Positions 41,838 through 46,495 of a stretch of 64,000 nt of DNA are shown here, one piece after another. This DNA comes from Candidatus Nanopelagicaceae bacterium (GTDB lineage: Bacteria > Actinomycetota > Actinomycetes > Nanopelagicales > Nanopelagicaceae), in the NCBI GenBank assembly GCA_018883365.1, contig VEQF01000004.1, forward strand, positions 1 to 64,000. Reading direction: 5' to 3'. Position 1 is the first letter of the stretch. Every line of letters begins with the position of its first letter. A program made the translations under genes and the position numbers. A model generated the notes under the pieces. The model saw only the letters and a program-made list of their open reading frames with translations. It was not told the origin of the DNA and made no database searches.

Positions 41838-43277
41838 ATGCGCCGCGCCAAAATAGTTTGCACGATGGGTCCTGCAGTCGAAAGCCCAGAGAAAGCCGCT
41901 GCGCTCATAGCCGCGGGAATGAATGTGGCTCGCCTCAACCTCTCTCACGGTGGTTACGATGAACACCAAAATCGACTCAATCTAATCCGACAAGCTGCGG
42001 CAGATGCCGGTAAGCCAGTCGCAATTCTGGTCGATCTTCAAGGTCCGAAAATCCGCTTAGGTCGCTTTGAAAATGGCCCTCATGATTTGTCACGTGGCGA
42101 TATTTTCACCATCACAACAGAGGAAATTTCTGGCACCAAAGAAAGAGTTGGAACCACTTATAAAGGACTTCCAGGGGACTGTAAGGCTGGAGATCGGATT
42201 TTGATTGATGACGGAAAAGTTACCGTCGAAGTAATTGAAGTAAAAGGAAATGATGTAATCACCAAAGTTATTGAGCCAGGCCCGGTTTCTAATAACAAAG
42301 GAATTAACCTTCCTGGAGTTGCGGTCTCAGTTCCCGCTATGTCTGACAAAGATAAAGATGATCTTCGTTGGGGATTAAAAGCCGGCGCAGATTTCATCGC
42401 ATTGTCCTTTGTGCGTTCAGCTAAAGATATTGATGATGTTCATGCGATTATGGATGAAGTTGGCGTGCGACTTCCAGTCATTGCGAAAATTGAAAAGCCG
42501 CAAGCGGTAGAAAATCTTGAAGAGATTGTTGCTGCTTTCGATGGAATCATGGTGGCTCGCGGCGATCTCGGAGTTGAAATGCCAATCGAAGACATTCCAT
42601 TGGTACAAAAGCGTTGCGTGACTTTAGCTCGTGAAATGGCAAAGCCGGTTATCGTTGCAACGCAAATGCTTGATTCGATGATTACTAATTCACGCCCAAC
42701 CCGTGCTGAAGCCACTGATTGTGCAAATGCGGTTTTAGATGGCGCAGATGCCCTGATGCTCTCTGGTGAAACTAGCGTTGGAACATTTGCCATCGAAGCG
42801 GTTCAAACTATGGCGCGCATTATTGAAAAGACCGAACAAGAAGCCCTTCATCTAATTCCAGCCTTGCAACACAATCCACGTACAAAAGGCGGAGCGATCA
42901 CCAAAGCTGCAACTGAAGTGGGATCTACTGTTGGCGCGAAATATCTTGCAGCGTTTACGAAATCTGGAGATTCCGCCCGACGAATGTCGCGTTTGCGCAG
43001 CTCCATTCCAATCTTGGCCTTAACTCCTGATGCCGCAACCTTTAACCAAATGTCCCTTTCATGGGGAGTGGAACCTATTTTGACCCCATTAGTCACAACA
43101 ACTGATGAGATGGTTAAGCAGGTAGATGCGATGGTTTTAGAGTCACAACGCGCTTCAAAGGGCGAGTTAATACTTATTGTTGCGGGGTCACCTCCAGGAA
43201 TTCCAGGCTCGACTAATGCGATGCGGGTGCATCAAGTTGGCGATGCTGTAGGTGGTGTGGCTCCGGCATATCGCTAG
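41838..43277 (+). CDS. pyk: Pyruvate kinase
   Basis: Pyruvate kinase makes pyruvate and ATP from phosphoenolpyruvate and ADP. The 479-residue protein shows KIVCTMGPAVESPEK, ARLNLSHG, VDLQGPKIRLG, the B domain (about 70-165), the active-site signature VIAKIEKPQAVENLEEI, MVARGDLGVEMP, TQMLDSMI, and LSGETSVGTF. The C-terminal allosteric domain includes TKSGDSARRMSRLRS. The stop codon overlaps a TAGAAT hexamer (43275-43280) that could serve the tRNA downstream. In other actinobacteria pyk likewise lies near the ANTAR regulator. Confidence 0.97.
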   Translation: MRRAKIVCTMGPAVESPEKAAALIAAGMNVARLNLSHGGYDEHQNRLNLIRQAAADAGKPVAILVDLQGPKIRLGRFENGPHDLSRGDIFTITTEEISGTKERVGTTYKGLPGDCKAGDRILIDDGKVTVEVIEVKGNDVITKVIEPGPVSNNKGINLPGVAVSVPAMSDKDKDDLRWGLKAGADFIALSFVRSAKDIDDVHAIMDEVGVRLPVIAKIEKPQAVENLEEIVAAFDGIMVARGDLGVEMPIEDIPLVQKRCVTLAREMAKPVIVATQMLDSMITNSRPTRAEATDCANAVLDGADALMLSGETSVGTFAIEAVQTMARIIEKTEQEALHLIPALQHNPRTKGGAITKAATEVGSTVGAKYLAAFTKSGDSARRMSRLRSSIPILALTPDAATFNQMSLSWGVEPILTPLVTTTDEMVKQVDAMVLESQRASKGELILIVAGSPPGIPGSTNAMRVHQVGDAVGGVAPAYR

Positions 43278-43304
43278 AATTGGCACGAACACTTTCTCGC
43301 TCCG

Positions 43305-43377
43305 GCCTCGGTACTCCAACGGTAGAGAGGGCAGTCTCAAACACTGCATAGTGTCGGTTCAAATCCGACTCGAGGCA
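43305..43377 (+). tRNA. tRNA-Leu (anticodon CAA), variable arm reduced to 5 nt
   Basis: A full cloverleaf can be drawn. Acceptor stem GCCTCGG pairs TCGAGGC (one G-T). The D-arm is CTC/GAG with a 10-nt loop CAACGGTAGA, the class II leucine-type D-loop. The anticodon stem GCAGT/ACTGC encloses CTCAAAC, giving anticodon CAA at 43338-43340. The T-arm is GTCGG-TTCAAAT-CCGAC, and the discriminator base is A at 43377. CCA is not encoded. Between anticodon stem and T-stem are only 5 nt (ATAGT), whereas bacterial tRNA-Leu normally has a long variable arm. It may be functional, altered or decaying; leucine identity is from anticodon, D-loop and A73. Confidence 0.8.
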
Positions 43378-43378
43378 C

Positions 43379-43972
43379 ATGACAACCGAATCTTCGGCAA
43401 AGTACAGAATCTTGGTCGCCGAAGATGAAACCTTAATCCGCATGGATCTTGTTGAGATGTTGCAAGATGCTGGTTATGAAGTTGTGGCGCAAGCAAGCAA
43501 TGGTCAAGAAGCAATTGATTTTGCAAATGAACATAAACCAGACCTGGCCATTCTCGATGTAAAAATGCCGGTACTCGATGGAATCTCAGCAGCCGAGAAA
43601 ATTATTTCCGTTTCTCCCGTACTTATGCTGACCGCTTTTAGTCAAAAAGATTTAATTGATCGTGCTAACGATGCCGGCGCTATGGCTTATGTCGTAAAGC
43701 CATTCACAATTAATGATCTGCTTCCAGCAATCGAGATCTCAATCAGTAGACATCGGCAGATGAAATCTCTTGAGGCTGAAGTTGCCGATCTCTACGATCG
43801 TCTGGAAACCCGGAAGGTGATAGATCGCGCCAAGGGGATTTTGATGAAGGCGTTAAATCTCTCTGAGCCGGAAGCTTTCTCCTGGATTCAAAGAGCGGCT
43901 ATGGACCGAAGAATTACGATGAAAGAGGTCGCTGAGGCGGTTATAAACCCCTCCACCACGCTTGATAAATAG
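43379..43972 (+). CDS. ANTAR-domain response regulator (PdtaR-like)
   Basis: A two-domain regulator of 197 residues. The receiver domain (about 8-125) has the acidic pair EDE at 15-17, phospho-acceptor Asp60 in ILDVKMPVLDG, the Thr in LMLTAFSQ and the Lys in YVVKPF. The ANTAR domain (about 138-195) has LYDRLETRKVIDRAKGILM and WIQRAAMDRRITMKEVA. ANTAR proteins bind paired hexaloop RNA hairpins and prevent termination. No histidine kinase is adjacent. The ATG is two bases after the last tRNA base, so tRNA 3'-end processing would yield a nearly leaderless mRNA. Similar regulators lie near pyk and polA in other actinobacteria. Confidence 0.93.
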   Translation: MTTESSAKYRILVAEDETLIRMDLVEMLQDAGYEVVAQASNGQEAIDFANEHKPDLAILDVKMPVLDGISAAEKIISVSPVLMLTAFSQKDLIDRANDAGAMAYVVKPFTINDLLPAIEISISRHRQMKSLEAEVADLYDRLETRKVIDRAKGILMKALNLSEPEAFSWIQRAAMDRRITMKEVAEAVINPSTTLDK

Positions 43973-44074: not shown

Positions 44075-45178
44075 ATGAAGAAGATAATTTCAGTATTTAC
44101 CGCCGTAGCGTTGGCGCTCGGTCTTTCAGTCTCATTAACTCCAGCGGCAAATGCAGCATGCAGCGGCAAGCTGAAAATTGCTTACCAAGGACCTCTTACT
44201 GGTTCTGATGCAGCTCTAGGTCTGAACATGTTGCGCGGCGTGCAGTTCGCAGTCAAGAAATCCGGCCTTGATGTTGAGGTCAAAGAAGTTGATGATCAAG
44301 GAGATCCAGCGGTCGCGGGCCCAATCGCTCCTTCAGTCTCACAAGATGAATGCATTATCGGTCTAGTTGGACCTGCGTATTCCGGTGCGTCACGTGTATC
44401 ACTTCCAGTTTATCTTTCAGCTGGTCTGCCAGTGATTACACCATCGGCGACAAACCCAACACTTTTTGATTTCGGCGGAAAGATTTTCCACCGTGCGGTT
44501 CTAACCGATGATTACCAAGGACCTGCATTGGCAAAGTTGGTTACCAATAATGTTAAAAATGCAAAAGTTTTCATTATCAATGATGCCTCTGATTACTCAG
44601 TGGGGTTAGCAAAATTAGTTGGCTTTACTCTTGGATCTAAGGTAGTTGGCAAAGAGACCACTCCAACAGGCACAACTGATTTCACTTCAACAATTGCTCG
44701 CATTAAGAAATCCAAAGCTAACGCGGTTATTTTCACCGGTTACTTCAGCCAAGCTGCTGTCCTTGTAAAGCAAATGCGTGATGCAGGCTCAAAGGCAGTG
44801 TTCGCAGGTGGCGATGGAGTTCTCGATCAACAATTTGTTAAGTTGGCTCGAAAGGCTGCAGAAGGCGCGCTTCTAACCGCACCTGCCGTTCCTTTTGATT
44901 CAGCTAACGCGAAGTTGGCTAAAGAATTCAAGAAGGTAATGGGTTCAGATCCGGGCGTCTACACAACAGAGTCATATGACGCAACAAACTTCTTTCTTGA
45001 GGCAATAAAGAAAGGCAACAAGTCACGTGCCACCGTTCTTAACTACATCAAGAAGAACTCATACAAGGGACTCTCAAAGACCTTGAAGTTCGATGATAAG
45101 GGTGAAGTTGCGGGCGTGGATGTAAACGGATTCGTAATTAAGGGCGGCAAGATTGTGCTGTCAGGTCCGATTAAGTAA
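44075..45178 (+). CDS. Branched-chain amino-acid ABC transporter substrate-binding protein, copy 1
   Basis: This periplasmic-binding-fold protein (Peripla_BP_6/LivJ type) captures branched-chain or related amino acids for the LivHMGF permease downstream. The 367-residue precursor has an N-terminal signal peptide (about 1-27) ending ANAAC; the context PAANAAC gives an A-X-A signal peptidase I site with the Cys just after it, not a clear lipobox. The mature protein contains LKIAYQGPLTG, a DDQGDPAVA loop, GPAYSGASRVSLPVY and ITPSATNPTLFD, typical of LivJ-like proteins. AAAGG precedes the ATG. It is about 86% identical to the next gene by my alignment. Confidence 0.92.
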   Translation: MKKIISVFTAVALALGLSVSLTPAANAACSGKLKIAYQGPLTGSDAALGLNMLRGVQFAVKKSGLDVEVKEVDDQGDPAVAGPIAPSVSQDECIIGLVGPAYSGASRVSLPVYLSAGLPVITPSATNPTLFDFGGKIFHRAVLTDDYQGPALAKLVTNNVKNAKVFIINDASDYSVGLAKLVGFTLGSKVVGKETTPTGTTDFTSTIARIKKSKANAVIFTGYFSQAAVLVKQMRDAGSKAVFAGGDGVLDQQFVKLARKAAEGALLTAPAVPFDSANAKLAKEFKKVMGSDPGVYTTESYDATNFFLEAIKKGNKSRATVLNYIKKNSYKGLSKTLKFDDKGEVAGVDVNGFVIKGGKIVLSGPIK

Positions 45179-45391: not shown

Positions 45392-46495
45392 ATGAAGAAA
45401 GTATCTTCAATCGTCTCTGCAATTGCACTTGCTTTGGGTATGACAGTAGCTCTTACACCAGCAGCTAACGCAGCTTGCACAGGCAAACTAAAAATCGCTT
45501 ACCAGGGTCCATTGACTGGTCCAGAAGCGGCATTGGGTCTAAACGAGCTTCGCGGCGTTCAGTTCGCTGTTAAGAAGTCCGGACTAGACATCGAAGTTAA
45601 GGAAGTTGATGATCAGGGAGATCCTGCAGTTGCAGGCCCAATCGCACCTTCCGTTCCACAAGATGAGTGCGTTGTAGCACTTGTTGGTCCTGCATACTCA
45701 GGAGCATCACGTGTTTCTCTTCCTGTTTACCTATCAGCAGGACTACCAATCATCACTCCATCTGCAACAAACCCAACACTTTTTGATTTCGGCGGAAAGA
45801 TTTTCCACCGTGCGGTTCTAACTGATGATTATCAGGGTCCAGCGCTTGCTCGCTTGATCACATCAAAGGTAAAGAATGCAAAGGTGTTCCTAATCAACGA
45901 TGCAACAGACTACTCAGTTGGTCTTGCAAAGCTTGTTGATTTCACACTTGGTTCACGCATCGTGGGCAAGGAAACAACACCACAGGGAACAACAGACTTC
46001 ACTTCAACAATCGCAAAGATTAAGAAGTCAAAGGCTAACGTTGTTGCTTACACCGGTTACTTCAGCCAAGCAGCTGTTCTTGTTAAGCAGCTACGTGACT
46101 CAGGTTCAAAGGCTGTATTTGCAGCTGGCGATGGTGTTCTTGATCAGCAGTTCGTAAAGCTTGCTCGTAAAGCTGCAGAAGGCGCGCTTCTAACCGCTCC
46201 TGCTGTACCGCTAGAGGCTGCTAACGCGAAGCTTGCTAAGGAGTTCAAGAAGGTTATGGGCGTAGATGCTGGTGTTTACACCACTGAGTCCTATGACGCA
46301 GCGAACTTCTTTATTGCCGCTATCAAGAAGGGCAACAAGGATCGTGCTTCAATCCTTAACTACATCAAGAAGAACTCACACAAGGGACTTTCAAAGACCT
46401 TGAAGTTCGATGAGAAGGGTGAAGTAGCAGGAGTAGATGTAAACGGATTCGTAATTAAGGGCGGCAAGATCGTCCTTACCGGCGCAATCAAGTAA
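45392..46495 (+). CDS. Branched-chain amino-acid ABC transporter substrate-binding protein, copy 2
   Basis: A tandem paralogue of the preceding gene, also 367 residues with no gaps in the alignment and about 50 substitutions. Signal peptide, A-X-A cleavage site with adjacent Cys, and all LivJ-type motifs are kept. Many substitutions are conservative, but the segment near residues 40-50 changes S-D to P-E and M to E, and DSAN becomes EAAN, so ligand range may differ. Codon choice looks more uniform than in copy 1 (for example AAG for Lys), suggesting higher expression. It has its own promoter and a hairpin after it, before livH. Confidence 0.92.
   Translation: MKKVSSIVSAIALALGMTVALTPAANAACTGKLKIAYQGPLTGPEAALGLNELRGVQFAVKKSGLDIEVKEVDDQGDPAVAGPIAPSVPQDECVVALVGPAYSGASRVSLPVYLSAGLPIITPSATNPTLFDFGGKIFHRAVLTDDYQGPALARLITSKVKNAKVFLINDATDYSVGLAKLVDFTLGSRIVGKETTPQGTTDFTSTIAKIKKSKANVVAYTGYFSQAAVLVKQLRDSGSKAVFAAGDGVLDQQFVKLARKAAEGALLTAPAVPLEAANAKLAKEFKKVMGVDAGVYTTESYDAANFFIAAIKKGNKDRASILNYIKKNSHKGLSKTLKFDEKGEVAGVDVNGFVIKGGKIVLTGAIK

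Follow-up and report, generated by a model that had tools for sequence, protein, structure and literature searches.

tRNA-Leu commonly serves to exemplify class II tRNAs. A review of tRNA identity published in 2023 describes cytosolic tRNA-Leu as long-armed and gives no exception, while also reporting that variations in the arm of E. coli tRNA-Leu are tolerated and that human mitochondrial tRNA-Leu(UUR), which has no arm, depends on A73 and A14 (PMC9976931). For Mycobacterium tuberculosis, a paper from 2024 names long variable loops for tRNA-Leu-2, -3 and -5 only, which implies short loops in the remaining leucine tRNAs, but these are not discussed (PMC11541572). A short-loop mycobacterial tRNA-Leu(TAG) has been treated as a departure from normal: it reads CUA and is an extra copy in an HNH-containing tRNA cluster beside a normal one (PMC6582537). 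A CAA-anticodon tRNA without a long arm has been described too, as a recent anticodon mutant of tRNA-Met that is hardly expressed (PMC8450103). Full-text literature searches gave no explicit statement that UUR codons are read by class I tRNAs in Actinobacteria; subscription papers were mostly outside this search, and an earlier description is possible. Since annotation routinely labels these genes as tRNA-Leu, no more than the generalisation would be new.

The window, the whole stretch of 64 kb analysed here, has one single tRNA, identified by ARAGORN as tRNA-Leu(caa) at 43305-43378; the Rfam tRNA model gives a full-length match to 43305-43377 of the plus strand (54.1 bits, E 7e-9). The gene is intact, 73 nt long and does not encode the CCA. 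Read by parts, the tRNA is GCCUCGG UA CUC CAACGGUAGA GAG G GCAGU CUCAAAC ACUGC AUAGU GUCGG UUCAAAU CCGAC UCGAGGC A. All pairs are formed in the acceptor, anticodon and T stems, the D-stem is CUC/GAG, and the anticodon loop CTCAAAC holds the anticodon CAA (43338-43340, plus strand; ARAGORN), which decodes UUG. The 10-nt D-loop (43317-43326, plus strand; CAACGGTAGA) is of the leucine type, with C13, A14, A15, G18 G19, 20a and A22; for comparison, the D-loop of the genome's own class II Leu(GAG) is GAATTGGCAGA. The variable region consists of the 5 nt ATAGT (43348-43352, plus strand), ending with U48, the partner of A15, and the Rfam match places the discriminator A73 at 43377 (plus strand). Anticodon loop, D-loop, discriminator, paired stems and 5-nt variable region had all been named in the original prediction and were all confirmed; the combination of class I shape and leucine-type D-loop is supported by ARAGORN, the Rfam match and the predicted fold, and the class I assignment also by a dedicated covariance model (R1, below).

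With a variable region within the 4-5 nt of class I tRNAs and an otherwise complete cloverleaf, the tRNA lacks the long arm of about 10 nt or more that marks class II. It does have the core of a class II bacterial tRNA-Leu, whether of the E. coli type or the genome's own GAG and UAG tRNAs: a 3-bp D-stem, unpaired 13-22, A14, the GGYAGA D-loop, the A15-U48 pair, A73 and the same codon box family; it differs in the 5-nt variable region that replaces the arm and in position 13, which is C rather than G. Animal mitochondrial tRNA-Leu(UUR), leucylated without an arm and identified mainly by A73 and A14 (PMC9976931), has the same class I shape, and charging in the same armless state is likely for the window tRNA; however, the mitochondrial tRNA is organellar, whereas the window tRNA is encoded on a bacterial chromosome, folds into a well-paired cloverleaf and has class II CUN isoacceptors alongside. 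The short variable loop is shared with those implied for some leucine tRNAs of M. tuberculosis and with the mycobacterial tRNA-Leu(TAG), which also has an actinobacterial host but, unlike the window tRNA, is not the sole isoacceptor (PMC6582537). Among annotated phages, T5-like coliphages (for example AKFV33) encode a tRNA-Leu(UAA) whose variable region has 5 nt, and the cyanophage P-SSM7 has a class I tRNA-Leu for UUA; these UAA-anticodon tRNAs share the class I shape and leucine D-loop elements, but are phage-borne, belong to other hosts and, in the T5-like phages, read GTTTT in the variable region and differ at the end of the D-loop.

The cloverleaf is also the minimum-energy fold of the window tRNA (z -2.6 relative to shuffled sequences, of which 1 in 200 was equally good), with a weak D-stem. 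A sequencing error or an alternative fold that hides a long arm, either of which would have returned the gene to the usual shape, can be ruled out: the same shape is found in genus and family relatives, several of them with the identical tRNA, and the cloverleaf is the best fold. There are also none of the signs of a tRNA pseudogene, such as broken stems, relaxed constraint or an intact copy elsewhere.

The leucine tRNAs of the draft genome (1.25 Mb, 41 contigs, 92.6% complete, 33 tRNAs) are limited to CAA (the window tRNA), UAA, UAG and GAG. Leu(UAG) and Leu(GAG) have kept extended arms. The only Leu(UAA) (L023) is itself class I, its variable region being 5 nt long, and thus not the normal reader of UUG that had been envisaged. 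A complete relative from the same family (G024; one contig, 38 tRNAs) has the identical leucine set, again with both UUR tRNAs in class I form. A second, class II tRNA-Leu(CAA) was found neither in the draft genome nor in the complete relative, nor beside the class I CAA in 14 genomes searched with a pattern that misses some tRNAs. With CAA and UAA both class I and no other UUR tRNA in the set, UUA and UUG are read by class I tRNAs alone; absence from an assembly that is 92.6% complete is weak evidence by itself, but the complete relative makes up for it.

To what extent this tRNA occurs elsewhere was addressed with the covariance model R1, which was built from 8 sequences, the window tRNA among them. 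R1 scores the window tRNA, as a member of the model, at 97.9 bits and the genome's own Leu(UAA) at 88.7 bits; every other tRNA of the genome reaches 53.4 bits at most. The window tRNA thus belongs to a class I tRNA-Leu(UUR) group whose scores far exceed those of any non-UUR tRNA. No parent of the class I form is singled out by R1 (53 bits for Arg(CCT) and Asn, 43 bits for the class II Leu(UAG)). Matches are present in 177 of the 197 genomes of the class, mostly one or two each (E <= 1e-12), which contradicts the earlier view that such a tRNA is unusual outside some mitochondria. At the stricter threshold of 1e-15, 51 of 197 genomes sampled from the phylum have matches, including families outside the class. 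Named genomes with a class I Leu(UUR) include Mycobacterium, Nocardia, Rhodococcus, Corynebacterium, Bifidobacterium, Streptomyces (CAA), Nocardioides and Planktophila.

Outside the Actinobacteria, a few tRNAs of this type are found in metagenome bins named Rokubacteria, Planctomycetota, Chloroflexaceae, Deltaproteobacteria, Gemmobacter and Christensenellaceae, some of which may be prophage or misbinned. Class II matches exist beside the class I ones in the Rokubacteria bin (UAA) and the Chloroflexaceae bin (CAA); in the Deltaproteobacteria, Planctomycetota, Christensenellaceae and Gemmobacter bins, class I UAA alone was seen. The Chloroflexaceae MAG has a tRNA array on the minus strand of L338, in which class I genes for Leu(UAA) and Leu(CAA) lie about 250 bases from each other; given the class II CAA match elsewhere in the same genome, this array looks phage- or plasmid-like. 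Viral contigs contain at least 120 stretches matched by R1, and 119 of the 120 listed are tRNA-Leu according to ARAGORN. These contigs (L163-L282) are rich in class I tRNA-Leu(UAA/CAA) genes, and several of them have two (L173, L181, L208).

The two forms replace each other between genomes. Ten genomes in which R1 had no match were checked within the class, and all ten have extended-arm UUR tRNAs, eight of them for both anticodons and two for one. Class I and class II tRNAs for the same UUR anticodon were found together in 0 of 14 genomes of the class, in a pattern search that misses some tRNAs and gives a partial view; in the same search, two genomes (G025 and G035) have a class I CAA and a class II UAA. 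In one genus with genomes of 6-10 Mb, which we infer to be Streptomyces-like from this size and its bldA-type UAA tRNA, Leu(CAA) is class I only in 6 genomes, class II only in 7 and present in both forms in none: one isoacceptor thus occurs in either shape among congeners. It is fairly probable that bacterial tRNA-Leu is not universally class II, that most Actinobacteria have the class I UUR form, as do some bacteria of other groups and many phages, and that the forms have replaced each other repeatedly in either direction, even within a genus, possibly by way of phage-borne copies.

Covariation was analysed in 135 distinct actinobacterial sequences and in 120 viral ones, the latter being among the matches listed; A14, G18, G19 and A22 were preset by the search pattern. 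In both sets the stems remain paired with several pair types each, more than in shuffles, which ignore shared ancestry; the compensatory changes in relatives that had been proposed as a check are therefore present across the 135 actinobacterial sequences. The 15-48 pair is A-U in 127 and G-C in 8 actinobacterial sequences, that is in 135 of 135 (shuffle maximum 127/135), and A-U or G-C in 113 of the 120 viral sequences listed (shuffle maximum 99), with shuffles that ignore shared ancestry in both cases. C13 is found in 135/135 actinobacterial and in 118 of the 120 viral sequences listed.

The tRNA gene lies between two genes on the same strand, both named from sequence knowledge: upstream a gene at 41838-43277 (plus strand), which we take to be the pyruvate kinase gene pyk, and downstream a gene at 43379-43972 (plus strand), presumably for a PdtaR-like response regulator of the ANTAR type. 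A candidate -10 box of the tRNA (TAGAAT, of the form TAnnnT; 43275-43280, plus strand) lies 24 nt upstream of it and includes the stop codon TAG of pyk in part or whole. Similar boxes are present at the same place in many relatives; a sigma-70 scan gave no support for TAGAAT as a -10 box. The start codon of the regulator, ATG in the window, is 1 nt beyond the tRNA end. Of 42 loci with this arrangement of genes, 35 have the regulator's ATG or GTG at exactly this distance from A73 and the rest at 12-139 nt; the 35 are related to each other and include some redundancy. No terminator-like site was found between the tRNA and the regulator gene. The conserved spacing suggests a leaderless regulator mRNA made by tRNA processing: tRNA and regulator are likely to be transcribed jointly, and 3' processing of the tRNA, by RNase Z, would cut this transcript into tRNA and leaderless mRNA. 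Further downstream, the window has two tandem genes for very similar substrate-binding proteins of 367 amino acids (44075-45178 and 45392-46495), followed by apparent branched-chain amino acid permease and ATPase genes.

This 1-nt junction would fit a decaying or recycled tRNA gene with a non-translational job, for example as 5'-end processing signal for the regulator mRNA, with UUG being read by another tRNA. Such an explanation is highly improbable, as the sole other possible reader of UUG, the UAA tRNA, is class I as well and the tRNA is conserved phylum-wide with compensatory changes, mostly without the regulator as neighbour. Of the three options offered in the original prediction, a purely non-translational role and a decaying gene both conflict with this conservation and covariation, with the absence of any other UUR tRNA from the complete relative and with the heavy use of TTG; the functional minimal tRNA-Leu is the one supported. 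A dual role, in translation and as a processing signal, is possible. The missing arm, usual in descriptions of tRNA-Leu, could also mean that the tRNA is charged with a different amino acid and that UUR codons are reassigned or ambiguous, but we regard this as extremely improbable: D-loop, A14 and A73 are of the leucine type, and in sister genomes a class II Leu(CAA) takes its place. Moreover, in an alignment of LeuRS over 30 actinobacterial genomes, the residues of the other genomes (TTR-coded ones excluded) were Leu in 59% and 65% at the genome's TTA and TTG sites, respectively, with no other amino acid above 7%; CTN sites were Leu in 63-80%. Codon reassignment is hence unsupported, and the anticodon CAA reads a codon that means leucine. 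TTR codons make up 186 of the 428 leucine codons (43%) in nine window genes, a heavy, ordinary load on the class I tRNAs.

Co-adaptation of the short arm to the loss of the leucine-specific domain from LeuRS is also very unlikely. The genome has a single bacterial LeuRS of 818 amino acids (L162, 156-2612), in which QGMV is almost directly joined to MSKS; T. thermophilus LeuRS has about 40 extra residues at this position, and its leucine-specific segment is absent from the genome's enzyme, a point in favour of co-adaptation. However, two genomes (G027 and G053) combine a segment-bearing LeuRS with class I leucine tRNAs, and a third (G046) has a LeuRS without the segment, no class I match and a class II Leu(UAA): among the genomes sampled, there is no association between the short arm and the loss of the domain. 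The class has two kinds of LeuRS, as seen in L162 and L403-L431: a compact one without the segment, such as the genome's own, and a long one with it, the latter in open frames of about 920-1200 amino acids.

We are thus highly confident that the window encodes a working tRNA-Leu(CAA) from the chromosome of a streamlined, probably Nanopelagicaceae-like actinobacterium, with class I build and presumably charged by LeuRS in its armless state. The tRNA reads UUG and, together with the short-armed tRNA-Leu(UAA), covers all UUR codons; one LeuRS would charge both along with the two long-armed CUN isoacceptors. Recognition is likely to rest on features common to both shapes, namely A73, A14, the D-loop (AA..GGYAGA) and the 15-48 pair, with the variable arm being dispensable. 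This would fit the tolerance of E. coli tRNA-Leu to arm variations and the use of A73 and A14 by the armless human mitochondrial tRNA-Leu(UUR) (PMC9976931). That T5-like phages infecting E. coli carry the short form suggests that the LeuRS of this host accepts it as well. The best explanation is that the window tRNA is ordinary and essential, and that its leucine identity probably resides in A73, A14 and the D-loop/15-48 core, not in the variable arm.

The short variable region of this tRNA is real, against the textbook and ordinary for the phylum. Since class I is the usual form of UUA/UUG tRNAs across most of the sampled Actinobacteria and many phages, the general class II rule for bacterial tRNA-Leu needs correcting: most Actinobacteria sampled, including Mycobacterium, break the long-arm rule for UUR codons. 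This is relevant to work on LeuRS and on tRNA-targeting toxins in mycobacteria, and a warning to annotators who regard an armless tRNA-Leu as suspect. It also provides a natural experiment on what LeuRS reads, and congeners with either a class I or a class II Leu(CAA) allow a direct swap test. If true, the repeated replacement of class I and class II forms would show in nature that bacterial LeuRS needs no variable arm.
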